A stretch of DNA of 54,327 nt, taken from assembly GCA_002772545.1 (NCBI GenBank), contig PFDR01000065.1, positions 1 to 54,327 on the forward strand, read 5' to 3'. The notes under the pieces were generated by a model. It saw nothing but the letters and a program-made list of their open reading frames with translations. It did not search any database and had not been told where the DNA came from. This stretch comes from Candidatus Peregrinibacteria bacterium CG10_big_fil_rev_8_21_14_0_10_49_10 (GTDB lineage: Bacteria; Patescibacteriota; Gracilibacteria; Peribacterales; Peribacteraceae). Of the stretch, positions 1,048 to 49,156 are shown one piece after another. Each line of letters opens with the position of its first letter. The first letter of the stretch is position 1. A program made the translations under genes and the position numbers.

Positions 1048-2324
1048 CCACTCCTTCCACCATTCATCGCGAAGACAACGGACGTATTACCTGCACAGTT
1101 TCTTTCAGTGCAGAAGAAGCTACTTCTTCTGAGGAAAAAGCCCTCCAAAAACTCGGAACCAACGTACAGGTAGACGGCTTCCGGAAGGGCGCAGTACCCG
1201 GTTCCGTGCTCAGGGAGAAAATAGATCCGGCAAAGCTCTTTGAAGAGACGGTTCGGGGTTTACTCCCGGGTGCATTCACGTCGCTGGTACAGGAGCATGA
1301 CATCAAGCCGGTTATTTCACCCAAAGTGGAAATTACCGGAGAATCCCCCATTACCATTAAAGTAACTTTTGTAGAACGACCAAAGGTAAAAATAAAAGGT
1401 GCATCGAAAATCTCCGTGAAGATGCAGAAACCCATAGTGGAAGAAAAAGATCTCGAACAGATGATTGGCTACATGCTCAAACAACATCAAACGAGCAAGC
1501 CGGTCGACCGACCTGCGCAGGAAGGAGACAGAATCACTATGGATTTCTGGGGAGAGGCAGCAAACGGCAAAGAGATAGAAAGTATACGCACGAACGGTCA
1601 TCAGGTTGTTGTTGGCAGTAAGGTATTACTACCCGGTTTCGAAGAGCAACTCAAAGGCCTGAAAAAAGGTGCATCAAAAGACTTTACACTCCCCTTCCCC
1701 GAAAAACATCAGTCCGAAGAACTCCGCGGGAAGCCGGTAACATTCCATGTCATTGTAAAAGCAGTGGAGGAACTTTCTACCCCCGAGCTGACCGATGCAT
1801 TTGTACAGAAACAGATGCAGACAGATTCTGTCGACGCATTCAAAAAACAGGTGAGAGAATCCATGGAAGCACAGGAAGAATCCATGTTGCGCAGAAAAAC
1901 CGAAGAAGAAGCCTTTGAAAAAATCCGTGAAGCAACCAAGGTAGATATTGTTCCCGAATTCATCGAAGATGAAAAGCAATCGCTCTTTGAAGAGCTGGCA
2001 AAGCAACTGGATCGCCAAAAAATGAGTTTTCCGGACTGGTTAACACAAACCGGAAAAAAACCGGAAGAGGTAGAGAAGGATCTGGAAGAACAGGCAGAGA
2101 AGAGGATAACACTACGACTTGGCATCTCTGCGCTTATGGAAGAGAAAGAGATTGATGTAACGGACGATGAAATGAAAAAAGTAGTGGAAGCTCTCGTGTC
2201 GCCCCTTTCTGTGGAGGAACGCCTCAAGATTGCACCAAACTACGCCAAAGGAGAACAAGCCTACGAACAACTGAAGTGGCAGAAGAAGGTAGAGAAGTTG
2301 TTGGATTCGATTACTAGAAACTAG
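1044..2324 (+). CDS. tig: Trigger factor (ribosome-associated chaperone/PPIase)
   Basis: N-terminal ribosome-binding motif 'VDGFRKGAVPGSVL', central PPIase-like domain 'GDRITMDFWGEAANGKEIES', helical C-terminus; overlaps secF by 4 nt. Confidence 0.95.
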   Translation: MTTPSTIHREDNGRITCTVSFSAEEATSSEEKALQKLGTNVQVDGFRKGAVPGSVLREKIDPAKLFEETVRGLLPGAFTSLVQEHDIKPVISPKVEITGESPITIKVTFVERPKVKIKGASKISVKMQKPIVEEKDLEQMIGYMLKQHQTSKPVDRPAQEGDRITMDFWGEAANGKEIESIRTNGHQVVVGSKVLLPGFEEQLKGLKKGASKDFTLPFPEKHQSEELRGKPVTFHVIVKAVEELSTPELTDAFVQKQMQTDSVDAFKKQVRESMEAQEESMLRRKTEEEAFEKIREATKVDIVPEFIEDEKQSLFEELAKQLDRQKMSFPDWLTQTGKKPEEVEKDLEEQAEKRITLRLGISALMEEKEIDVTDDEMKKVVEALVSPLSVEERLKIAPNYAKGEQAYEQLKWQKKVEKLLDSITRN

Positions 2325-2459
2325 GAATTCAGTTTTGCATCTTTTATCTCTTGGGATTTTCTCATAGCTAAGAGCTAAGAGCTTTAAGTTCTAAGTTTTT
2401 GCAGGTATCTAAGGAACAAGGAAATGAAGTTCTTAAATCCTAATTTCTAGTTTCTAGGA
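2313..2459. repeat. Heptad-repeat locus A: inverted arms between convergent tig and rel, no ORF inside
   Basis: Left arm CTAGAAACTAGGAATT (2314-2329) vs reverse complement of AATTTCTAGTTTCTAG (2442-2457): 15/16. Middle 'atagcta agagcta agagctt taagttc taagttt' also has a 7-bp period. Both gene stop codons (tig 2322-2324; rel 2454-2456) lie in the arms. Confidence 0.7.
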
Positions 2460-10427: not shown

Positions 10428-10892
10428 GAATTAAGAATTAAGAATTATGAATGAAGATTAGCATGGCACAAGTAGTACAAAATAAAACGGCTCCGCACAA
10501 GAAGATACAATCTTTCACAGATCTAGATGCTTGGAAAGCAGGGCATAATCTTGTCATTACCGTTTATGAAATTGCAAAAAAATTCCCAAAATGCGAAGAA
10601 TTTGAACTAGCAAAGCAGCTAAAAAGAGCAGTGACATCTATTACTTCAAATATTGCGGAGGGATTCAGTAGGCAGTCGTATAAGGAAAAAATGTATTTTT
10701 ATAGGATAGCGCTCGGTTCACTTACAGAGGTGCAAAATCAATTACTGATTGGTAGGGATGTACAACTGATTACTCAAGATATTTTTTATAGAGCGACTAA
10801 TCAGGCTGTTACTGCAAGTAAAATCATCAACGGACTCATCAAATCAACAGGGATGAGAAGAATGCAAGTTCCTAATTCTTAATTCCTAATTC
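10428..10892. repeat. Heptad-repeat locus B: inverted arms bracketing four-helix-bundle gene #1
   Basis: Left GAATTAA GAATTAA GAATTAT GAATGAA (10428-10455); right CCTAATT CTTAATT CCTAATT (10871-10891). Arms 10428-10446 / 10874-10892 are 18/19 complementary. Confidence 0.8.
10451..10882 (+). CDS. Four-helix-bundle protein (23S rRNA intervening-sequence / S23-like)
   Basis: 'LDAWKAGHNLVITVYEIAKKFPKCEEFELAKQLKRAVTSITSNIAEGFSRQSYKEKMYFYRIALGSLTEVQNQLLI' matches the family pattern (AWK...L...VY..T..FP..E...L..Q+RRA..SI..NIAEG). Alternative start 10463. Confidence 0.92.
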   Translation: MKISMAQVVQNKTAPHKKIQSFTDLDAWKAGHNLVITVYEIAKKFPKCEEFELAKQLKRAVTSITSNIAEGFSRQSYKEKMYFYRIALGSLTEVQNQLLIGRDVQLITQDIFYRATNQAVTASKIINGLIKSTGMRRMQVPNS

Positions 10893-18024: not shown

Positions 18025-18479
18025 GTGGGCAGTGGCAAGTGGGCAGTCTCGCAATAGATACAATAGTGATATGACAAGACTACCCTATCAAAAATTGCAC
18101 ATCTGGCAGAAAGGCATGCAGTTAACCAAAAAAATCTATGCCATAACCAAATTGTTGCCTGCTGATGAACGTTACGGACTCATATCGCAAATGAATCGAG
18201 CAGCAGTCTCTGTTCCATCGAATATTGCAGAAGGCAGTCAGAGAATAACAAAAGAAGGAATGGGGCACTATTTGCGCATCGCAAGGGGATCACTGGTTGA
18301 ATTGGAAACACAAACCCTTCTCTGCAGAGAATTATTTTCGGTATGCAGTGACAGCATCACACTGCCAATTCTCAATGAAATACAGGAACTAAAAAAGATG
18401 ATGTACAGTTTCCAGCAAAAGCTACAAAGCGACAGCGAGCAAGTTTGCACATAAGCACTGCCCACTTGCCACTGCCCAC
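18025..18479. repeat. Heptad-repeat locus C: perfect inverted arms bracketing four-helix-bundle gene #2
   Basis: GTGGGCA GTGGCAA GTGGGCA GT (18025-18047) and its exact reverse complement ACTGCCC ACTTGCC ACTGCCC AC (18457-18479), 23/23. Confidence 0.9.
18071..18454 (+). CDS. Four-helix-bundle protein (S23/IVP-like)
   Basis: 'LHIWQKGMQLTKKIYAITKLLPADERYGLISQMNRAAVSVPSNIAEGSQRITKEGMGHYLRIARGSLVELETQTLLCREL'. Confidence 0.93.
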   Translation: MTRLPYQKLHIWQKGMQLTKKIYAITKLLPADERYGLISQMNRAAVSVPSNIAEGSQRITKEGMGHYLRIARGSLVELETQTLLCRELFSVCSDSITLPILNEIQELKKMMYSFQQKLQSDSEQVCT

Positions 18480-18519
18480 CTGTGGTACACGTGGGCAGCA
18501 GCAAAAGAATCATTCATCG

Positions 18520-20963: not shown

Positions 20964-21032
20964 TAGTTATTGGTTATTAGTTCGGTGTTTTTGATGTGAA
21001 CAACCTCACTAATAACAAACAACCAATAACTA
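20964..21032. repeat. Heptad-repeat locus E: short inverted arms, no gene inside
   Basis: TAGTTAT TGGTTAT TAGTTCG (20964-20984) facing ACTAATA ACAAACA ACCAATA ACTA (21008-21032); outer 12 nt perfectly complementary. Confidence 0.7.
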
Positions 21033-23499: not shown

Positions 23500-23614
23500 T
23501 AGAAACTAGAAACTAGAACTTGAAGCTTAGGCCGGGACCCTATTTTCTTAGGAAATTTTTGGTCCTAAATGACCAAGACACAAGAATATCTAGTGCTGAA
23601 TATTCTAGTTTCTA
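23500..23614. repeat. Heptad-repeat locus F: inverted arms between the PhzE-type and TrpR-like genes, no ORF inside
   Basis: TAGAAAC TAGAAAC TAGAACT TGAAGCT (23500-23527) facing TTCTAGTTTCTA (23603-23614); 12/12 complementary to 23500-23511. The TrpR-like stop codon lies in the right arm. Confidence 0.7.
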
Positions 23615-34822: not shown

Positions 34823-36334
34823 ATGCATGCCCGCAGATGTTCCTACACCTTCCTTCTCAGTTTTCTTATTGGCATCTTTCTGTTGCAGTGGAACCAGCAA
34901 AAAATGTATCCGCCGGATGTCTGGGAACTCCTGCTCATGCTCGGAGCGCTGGGTGCGGTCTCCGTTTGTATACCGCAGACAAGGAAGATGGGAGGCATAG
35001 CCCTGGCCATGGCACTGGGCATTGCCGTGTCTCTGAGTACCGTGGAACGCACAACACATGTGCCAACGGCATTGACTGTAGATACCTATGCAACGGAGCA
35101 GTTCGTAAAAGTGTATGGAACCATTGCCGCAGAACCCGACAGAAGACCTATGCAAACTAAATACACCGTAGACGTACATCAGATTCAAACTGCATCGGGC
35201 ACCATTCTTTTTCCCGTACAGGGAAAGGTACTTGCTACGTACGGGAGCTGGCCACGCTTTGCCTATGGAGAGGATGTCGTAGTGCAGGGCACACTCCAGG
35301 CACCCCGTGCCATAGAAACCTTTCAGTACGACCGCTATTTGAGCCGCTATGGAGTCTATGCAGTCATCTATAGAGCGGGTATGCAGAAGAAACAAAGTGT
35401 CGCACCGAAGGATGACATCTGGGCAAGGTTCAAATCCTCTCTCTTTACACTCAAAGACCACTTTGAATACCGGATCAATACTCTGTATGCAGAACCACAT
35501 GCTTCATTTATGGCAGGTCTGCTTACAGGTTCCCGACGTGGCATACCCGATGCATTGCTGAAGGATTTCAATACCACAGGTCTCACACACATTATTGCTA
35601 TTTCCGGCTACAACATCACCATTGTTATCACCATGATTTCAGGAATGCTCTTCTGGTTGCCACTGAAGAAACGGTTCTTCCCCGCAGTTGCTGCCATCAT
35701 TGCATTTACGCTTTTTGTGGGAGCAAGCGCCGCTATAGTTCGTGCAAGCATTATGGGAATACTCGGACTGCTTGCACTGCAAACAGGACGCCAGTCTGAA
35801 GTGCGACTGAGCGTACTGTGGACCCTCTTTTTCATGCTCCTGTGGAACCCAAAGTACCTGTGGTACGACGCAGGCTTCCAGCTCTCGTTCCTTGCCGTGC
35901 TGGGGCTCATAGAAGTAGCTCCGCTGCTCGACCCCCTCTTTCAATACATTCCTCAGACACTCGGTATTCGTGAAGCACTGCAAATGACCGTATCCGCACA
36001 GCTGAGTGCGGTACCGCTCATTATTTTTTTGTTTGGCAGACTCTCCCTTATAGCACCCATAGCAAATCTCCTTGTTGCTCCTTTTATACCGCTTGCCATG
36101 TTGTTTGGATTCCTCGGAACGGTAGCAAGTTTTGTATGGTTCCCTCTGGGGCAAATGCTCTCCTATATTGCATGGGGATGTCTGGAGTGGATTGTAATCG
36201 TGGCACATCAACTTTCTAATATTCCCTTTTCATCGGTAGAACTAGGAAAGATAAGTAGTATAGTTATTGTGGGGTATTACTGCCTTCTCCTTCTTGTGTT
36301 GTATCGCCATCAGCGAATGGTTGCTTGTTACTAG
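34823..36334 (+). CDS. comEC: ComEC/Rec2-family competence membrane protein
   Basis: 'FMAGLLTGSRRGIPDALLKDFNTTGLTHIIAISGYNITIV' followed by a multi-TM ComEC domain; no C-terminal metallo-beta-lactamase domain. Confidence 0.9.
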   Translation: MHARRCSYTFLLSFLIGIFLLQWNQQKMYPPDVWELLLMLGALGAVSVCIPQTRKMGGIALAMALGIAVSLSTVERTTHVPTALTVDTYATEQFVKVYGTIAAEPDRRPMQTKYTVDVHQIQTASGTILFPVQGKVLATYGSWPRFAYGEDVVVQGTLQAPRAIETFQYDRYLSRYGVYAVIYRAGMQKKQSVAPKDDIWARFKSSLFTLKDHFEYRINTLYAEPHASFMAGLLTGSRRGIPDALLKDFNTTGLTHIIAISGYNITIVITMISGMLFWLPLKKRFFPAVAAIIAFTLFVGASAAIVRASIMGILGLLALQTGRQSEVRLSVLWTLFFMLLWNPKYLWYDAGFQLSFLAVLGLIEVAPLLDPLFQYIPQTLGIREALQMTVSAQLSAVPLIIFLFGRLSLIAPIANLLVAPFIPLAMLFGFLGTVASFVWFPLGQMLSYIAWGCLEWIVIVAHQLSNIPFSSVELGKISSIVIVGYYCLLLLVLYRHQRMVACY

Positions 36335-36838
36335 TTGCTTGTAACTTGTTATGGCTATATTTATTACATTCGAGGATATAAAGGCTTGGCAGGAAGGTCG
36401 CAAGCTCATGCAAACCATACGCCAATACTGCAATAGAGCTCGTGCCAAAAGAGACTTTGCATGGGCAGACCAAATCAGCAGATCCACTCTTTCTGTTATG
36501 GCCAATATTGCGGAAGGACATGATGCACTTAGTAAAAATGAATTCATTAGGTTTTTAGGATATGCAAAGCGCTCATGCGCAGAAACAAGATGTCACTTGT
36601 ACTATGGTTTTGATGCTGGATACATCACAAAAAAAGAATTCCAATCTACAGCTTTACAGGCAAAACAGATTTGCGCTCAAATTGCTAGCCTCATCAAGTA
36701 TCTAAGAAGTAGCAAATGAGCAACAAGTAACTAGTAACCAGCAACAAGTAACTAGTAACCAGCAACAAGTAACTAGTAACCACTAACCAGCAACTAGTAA
36801 CTAGTAACCACTAACCAGCAACTACTAAACAAGCACCA
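36318..36838. repeat. Heptad-repeat locus D: inverted arms bracketing four-helix-bundle gene #3, long right array
   Basis: Left TGGTTGC TTGTTAC TAGTTGC TTGTAAC TTGTTAT (36318-36352). Right: about 16 heptads from 36720, including three perfect 21-bp copies GCAACAAGTAACTAGTAACCA (36720-36782). Arms 36320-36336 / 36729-36745 are 16/17 complementary. Confidence 0.9.
36351..36719 (+). CDS. Four-helix-bundle protein (S23/IVP-like)
   Basis: 'FEDIKAWQEGRKLMQTIRQYCNRARAKRDFAWADQISRSTLSVMANIAEGHDALSKNEFIRFLGYAKRSCAETRCHLYYGFD'. Confidence 0.9.
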   Translation: MAIFITFEDIKAWQEGRKLMQTIRQYCNRARAKRDFAWADQISRSTLSVMANIAEGHDALSKNEFIRFLGYAKRSCAETRCHLYYGFDAGYITKKEFQSTALQAKQICAQIASLIKYLRSSK

Positions 36839-42348: not shown

Positions 42349-42480
42349 GGAGCCGCACCCAAGGAACAAACAGTACCTAAGAAGCCTCATTCAAGGAGGC
42401 GCACTCCGGAGCCGCACCCAAGGAACAAACAGTACCCTAAGGAGCCTCATTCAAGGAGGCGCACTCCGGAGCCGCACCCA
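42349..42480. repeat. About 60-bp tandem duplication with a third partial copy
   Basis: 'ggagccgcacccaaggaacaaacagtacc(c)taagRagcctcattcaaggaggcgcactcc' at 42349-42407 and 42408-42467, then 'ggagccgcaccca' at 42468. Confidence 0.9.
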
Positions 42481-49088: not shown

Positions 49089-49093
49089 GATAT

Positions 49094-49156
49094 AGGGATT
49101 AGGGATTAGGGATTAGGGATTAGGGATTAGGGATTAGGGATTAGGGATTAGGGATT
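49094..49156. repeat. Heptad-repeat locus H: nine perfect AGGGATT copies in the csoR 5' leader
   Basis: 63 nt = 9 x AGGGATT (minus strand AATCCCT), ending 5 nt before the csoR ATG. Confidence 0.97.

Follow-up and report, generated by a model that had tools for sequence, protein, structure and literature searches.

The element at positions 18,025 to 18,479 of the window (the whole stretch of 54,327 nucleotides analyzed here) is most probably a small mobile element of selfish nature, intergenic but of the same kind as the S23-coding intervening sequences (IVSs) of rRNA genes. We count it with the IVSs because it works like one, although the defining location within an rRNA gene fails. The evidence, much of it from related elements, consists of the architecture, the pairing kept between the arms, insertion polymorphism, near-identical copies in diverged plasmids, a sense bias, recurrent sites of insertion, and purifying selection on the gene.

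The element and its setting in the window

In the window element, a gene for a four-helix-bundle protein lies within the 409 nt that separate two inverted arms (Table 1). An earlier note on this stretch had claimed exact 23-bp inverted arms framing the gene (they hold, at 23 of 23 positions) and an additional unit to the right of the right arm (it holds, as gtgggcagcagc, in direct orientation). The description of the arms as heptads holds in part: the unit of the window element is 7 nt, but periods from 6 to 9 occur across 97 loci. The predicted RNA, with a long stem and the open reading frame in the loop, also stands as a predicted fold (−135 kcal/mol, z = −3.6) in which the arms pair over their full length. 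The 127-residue protein matches PF05635 (E = 7.2e-32) and TIGR02436, “four helix bundle protein” (5.3e-30); the only PDB homolog found by sequence is 2gsc, which is XCC0516 (E = 3.6e-21).

Table 1. Coordinates of the IVP elements, hairpins, and related features (window positions unless a locus is named)
Feature	Position	Strand	Remarks
Whole element: arm, S23/IVP gene, inverted arm	18025-18479	+	455 bp
5′ arm, GTGGGCA-GTGGCAA-GTGGGCA-GT, period 7	18025-18047	+	23/23 complementary to 18457-18479
3′ arm, exact inverted copy of the 5′ arm	18457-18479	-	begins 3 nt past the stop codon
S23/IVP four-helix-bundle gene, ATG start, 127 aa	18071-18454	+	PF05635, TIGR02436
Partial extra unit gtgggcagcagc	18491-18502	+	outside the right arm; direct, not inverted
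Second element, GAATTAA units	10428-10892	+	arms 10428-10451 / 10869-10892; between lexA and a dinB-type polymerase gene
IVP gene of second element	10451-10882	+	PF05635 type
Third element	36318-36824	+	5′ arm 36318-36351; after a comEC-type gene
IVP gene of third element	36351-36719	+	
Long 3′ array of third element	36719-36824		TAACTAG-type units
Gene-less heptamer hairpin, TAGTTAT units	20964-21032	.	31 nt separating the arms
Gene-less inverted pair, ACTAGAA units	2313-2456	.	
Gene-less inverted pair, ACTAGAA units	23500-23614	.	same unit as at 2313-2456
Armed IVP genes in cas loci	L129:1992-2351, L133:1986-2354, L138:2001-2357		

Upstream of the window element lies a K+-channel-type gene in the same orientation; pnp, downstream, is on the opposite strand. 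Neither a sense promoter-like site nor a terminator-like site was found at this locus. The missing promoter is consistent with transcription from the host operon, for which there are no transcript data. A search with Rfam models gave only tRNAs, and no rRNA gene, for the window and for the remaining IVP loci of the genus. The PADLOC models of anti-phage defense do not match the window element, and no homolog of the IVP was found in phages.

The three best close inverted repeats of the window (scores 23, 18, and 17) are its three IVP loci, with repeat positions 10428/10869, 18025/18457, and 36320/36723-36744; the next best (score 14) is unrelated. Twelve short-period arrays occur in the window, against zero or one in shuffled sequences. 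This ranking over the whole window, together with the cross-locus control described below, shows that the window arms are not due to chance. For the second element, the orthologous site in relatives is occupied, reduced to a remnant, or empty. The unit of the gene-less hairpin at 20964-21032 resembles the arms of two other IVP loci of the same genome (L005 and L006). Elsewhere, nine tandem TAGGGAT heptamers run in one direction at 49093-49156 without an inverted partner nearby (a relic arm is possible), and two to three copies of direct repeats of ∼60 bp (GGAGCCGCACCC...CCTAAG) at 42349-42480 are unrelated to the heptamer arms.

Inverted arms around IVP genes

The source genome contains nine PF05635 genes; all eight complete loci are armed and the ninth runs into a contig end. 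Within this one genome, the units and their periods vary: TAGCGTTAC (9), GAATTAA (7), ACATGGAT (8), and TAATTGA (7), the weakest arms being those of L003, with a 6-mer unit over 11 nt. In the family of the window's organism, the gene is present in 64 of 74 genomes, with 369 matches in total and 0 to 21 per genome, and inside one genus the copy number is 9, 7, or 1.

To score the arms, the upstream flank was compared with the reverse-complemented downstream flank, and the best match without gaps was taken. A locus is called armed at a score of 13 or more, and flanks paired across different loci serve as the control; the scores were computed only at individually retrieved IVP loci, not genome-wide. 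In the 97 loci from the window's family and from plasmids, 91% reach the cut-off, against 1.8% of the cross-locus pairs; only 0.3% of all cross-locus pairs score 20 or more. Among 85 gene copies from other phyla, 64% are armed, against 2.0% of cross-locus pairs, and the other 36% have arms under the cut-off. That broad set was picked by similarity to a few query proteins and is mostly from Bacteroidota, with Bacillota, Pseudomonadota, Acidobacteriota, Chloroflexota, and others. Arms are likewise present around IVP genes in plasmids of cyanobacteria and of Gemmatirosa. The earlier note would have been refuted by homologous genes without arms; instead, arms occur at nearly all homologs in the genome and the family, and at most of those in other phyla.

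Over the 97 loci, the period is 7 in 61, 8 in 17, 9 in 14, and 6 in 5, and G exceeds C in the 5′ arm at 81. The median length is 450 bp (n = 117 armed elements). Of 145 unit consensuses, 69 contain an AG dinucleotide; a motif present in every one was not found. The unit follows the kinship of the protein: at protein distances below 0.3, nine of nine pairs have the same unit, against 0.4%-4% at distances above 1.2.

Since the arms cannot be aligned, the comparison of own-arm with cross-locus scores is the only feasible test of the covariation that the earlier note had proposed to analyze. In a tree of the IVPs (a quick FastTree), ten form a clade (support 0.97) with nine located downstream of lexA. 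In that clade, scores of 12-22 for a locus's own arms contrast with 4-10 across loci, one close pair excepted. Within this monophyletic group of lexA-IVP-dinB loci, the arms have kept their pairing through a turnover of their sequence. The kept pairing could result from selection for pairing or from arm-to-arm correction by template switching; it fits both. The protein is conserved as well. Nearly all listed IVP matches are uninterrupted frames. dS was measurable in seven pairs; six of them have a dN/dS of 0.05-0.10 and the seventh one of 0.21. The IVP gene is thus under purifying selection.

Placement at gene junctions and insertion polymorphism

Mobility, sense insertion at operon junctions, and gene-less hairpins were not mentioned in the earlier note. 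Among the 117 armed elements for which both neighbors could be identified, the two have the strand of the IVP gene in 69 and the opposite strand in 14, a strong sense bias (p = 7e-10). The neighbors are mixed in the others, with the upstream gene on the same strand and the downstream gene on the opposite strand in 24 and the reverse in 10. The bias is 42 to 2 in the set from other phyla and weak (27:12, p = 0.02) in the window's family and plasmids. The arms lie at a median of 10 nt past the upstream stop codon and 13 nt ahead of the next start codon.

Some junctions recur: fadB-fadA, gmk-nadD, sdhA-sdhB, carA-carB, and lexA-dinB (the last named by Pfam, the others read from translations). Across 15 genomes, the fadB-fadA junction contains an IVP gene with arms in seven (all sense), a gene-less hairpin in four or five, and neither in the remainder. 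At 30 lexA-dinB loci, eight have the gene, one a truncated gene (L083), and about five a gene-less hairpin; the remaining ones have a short spacer alone or other sequence. Full, gene-less, and empty states are therefore all seen at both junctions, the truncated gene at lexA-dinB only. Unrelated IVPs can be found at one junction (L008 and L017; likewise L172 and L190).

In cyanobacterial plasmids, armed IVP elements occur between cas6 and cas4, and between cas10 and cmr3. The function 23S_rRNA_IVP has been listed among those found in cas loci (PMC3936711). Because the IVP genes at the three cas loci of Table 1 are armed, the published CRISPR-locus IVP may be an insertion only. One IVP element of the source genome, at L007 / L252 (G000:C80), lies upstream of its RNase III gene, at a distance of ∼0.6 kb.

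The comparison of occupied and empty sites in Nostoc plasmids shows that the elements insert cleanly. At site A, the element is present in L140, L151, and L150, whereas L152-L155 lack it and have the two genes almost in contact. At site B, it is present in L135 and L144 and absent from L145, L146, and L149; at site C, it is present in L143 only. The empty sites have no arms, and the arms therefore arrive together with the element. The L140 and L151 copies are 99.3% identical, with flanks at 92.5% and 89.9%; the L135 and L144 copies are 99.4% identical, with flanks at 83.1% and 94.5%. In both pairs, the flank differences extend into the 100 bp adjoining the element. The simplest reading is that of recent independent insertions at the same site, in a homing-like manner, although short recombination tracts are not excluded. 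A gene-less hairpin, built of the same CAGAAGT-type unit, interrupts the IVP gene of L150, and another, with AGGGAAC units, occupies site B in L147. At site A, TTCTA is a possible target-site duplication that is indistinguishable from arm sequence. At a plasmid junction that holds IVP elements elsewhere, L148 has a gene-less hairpin with ATTCAAA arms and unrelated cargo (700-1080).

For the window element itself, no comparable empty site exists, because the K-channel/pnp neighborhood is not conserved in the genomes G001, G002, or G046. The mobility of that copy is inferred from its relatives, without an occupied/empty comparison of its own.

Mechanism, rival explanations, and known systems

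In the explanation we prefer, a promoterless four-helix-bundle gene flanked by inverted arms of short tandem repeats would insert between a stop codon and the next start codon, mostly in sense. An element so placed would be co-transcribed with the operon of its host, and its RNA would form a long hairpin whose loop contains the gene. RNase III would probably excise the hairpin, by analogy with the rRNA IVSs (PMC4990558), for which excision without ligation is a criterion; an RNase III gene is encoded in the source genome, but there are no RNA data, and the RNase III-type processing raised in the earlier note is only inferred. The IVP, probably an oligomer, would be needed for spread and may serve as an accessory factor that binds nucleic acid or the hairpin of its own element, with the cutting and copying enzymes supplied by the host. 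Gene-less hairpins would be either decay products or passengers moved in trans. Without transcript or protein data, expression, cutting by RNase III, and the mechanism of movement are proposals only. The element has no catalytic domain and no partner enzyme was identified.

A sub-case of this explanation is RNA-mediated mobility: once excised, the hairpin RNA would enter an mRNA or a DNA site, and a reverse transcriptase (RT) of the host would copy it, with the IVP acting like Avd. In its favor, the elements enter transcribed junctions in sense, like the IVSs of rRNA. Also in its favor is the homology to Avd, seen for P0002 with NF033474 (E = 2e-4) and phrog_3206 (E = 3.5e-8), the Avd model itself being below cut-off. 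Genomes with an RT are richer in IVP genes (7.7 vs. 3.4 per genome, p = 0.003), a weak and confounded point, uncorrected for kinship. Against it, the element has no RT, and five or more IVP genes are present in each of 16 genomes without a detectable RVT_1 gene. Carriage therefore does not require a resident RT, and perhaps movement does not either. On balance, we consider this sub-case less likely than not.

A classical DNA transposon, MITE-like with a passenger gene, would have the arms as terminal inverted repeats and a transposase in trans. The inverted ends, the insertion polymorphism, and the gene-less derivatives with the same unit (one of them inside the L150 gene) agree with it, but the terminal repeats are not conserved among copies, even at one site and inside one protein clade, with units common to close relatives only. 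Tandem-repeat arms of variable period also differ from transposase end sequences, the sense bias is strong, and the target duplication is not fixed; we regard this as unlikely. About as unlikely is a host device for regulation or mRNA processing (an operon splitter), with the IVP an RNA-binding regulator. The operon position, the lexA-IVP-dinB order kept in one clade, and a pairing that outlasts sequence change favor it; it is contradicted by the sporadic occurrence among relatives at each junction, the unrelated IVPs at the same junction, and the near-identical copies in diverged plasmids. Least plausible of all is that the arms have nothing to do with the gene and arise in any spacer as by-products of replication slippage and template switching. 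Short-period arrays are typical products of slippage and gene-less arrays do occur, but the pairing is locus-specific (91% vs. 1.8%), empty sites are armless, and the unit follows the protein. Template switching might still keep the two arms alike. The selfish element of the IVS kind thus remains the preferred reading.

The earlier note had proposed a free-standing, intergenic analog of the S23-type 23S IVSs, and this is supported. A PF05635 protein, complementary ends with the open reading frame in the loop, and (in the relatives) a sporadic, mobile distribution are IVS criteria that are met; the one that fails is location, since the window element is not inside a 16S or 23S rRNA gene. The IVS in helix 45 of the 23S rRNA of Coxiella burnetii ends in inverted repeats of 28 bp and contains tandem GACAGAT heptamers beside an S23 ORF described as decaying (PMC4990558). 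It resembles the present elements in protein family, length (∼430 nt), inverted ends, sense ORF, and scattered distribution. Unlike it, they lie between protein genes, in several copies per genome, with arms of locus-specific sequence and period, and their gene is under purifying selection rather than decaying. IVP-coding inserts occur at several 16S and 23S sites in rRNA genes of CPR (PMC11270868); the IVP domain is common to both, and the relevant passages of that paper do not mention inverted repeats or copies outside rRNA.

Intergenic tandem heptamers are known in Xanthomonas (GGGAATC) and Nostoc (GGGGA(C/T)T), with 70 inverted heptamer pairs in X. campestris, no general link to mobile elements, and no mention of S23 (PMC4692102). 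They share with the present arms the seven-base intergenic unit, and XCC0516 is also from X. campestris. In P6b of the Nostoc tRNA-Leu intron, the sides of the stem are complementary 7-nt repeats, and one motif class replaces another with the structure kept (PMC4476775); a gene in the loop is not described there. STRR and small dispersed repeats have also been studied earlier in cyanobacteria. REPINs and MITEs are short, intergenic, hairpin-forming mobile DNA, probably moved in trans when gene-less; their families keep a conserved sequence, whereas here the unit differs from locus to locus. Avd of the diversity-generating retroelements is a homologous four-helix bundle (PMC10053308), but the element has no RT, template repeat, or variable repeat and fails as such a retroelement; the single RT match of the source genome is on another contig (C8). 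In open-access text (most subscription papers could not be searched), we found no paper uniting S23 genes and heptamer repeats as one mobile element.

A bolder reading is that of an unnamed class of mobile element without a catalytic enzyme of its own, homing to operon junctions in bacteria at large and consisting of a self-matching tandem-repeat hairpin plus a four-helix-bundle protein, with the cyanobacterial and xanthomonad heptamer repeats as its gene-less forms and the rRNA IVSs as a special case. Taken jointly, these statements could as well be wrong as right. The reading raises the question of how an enzyme-less element moves and how its two arms change in sequence together. If true, it would explain the 23S_rRNA_IVP of cas loci as an inserted element and not a cas gene, and it would unite the S23/IVS inserts of rRNA, the heptamers of cyanobacteria and xanthomonads, and the “four helix bundle protein” genes of operons.
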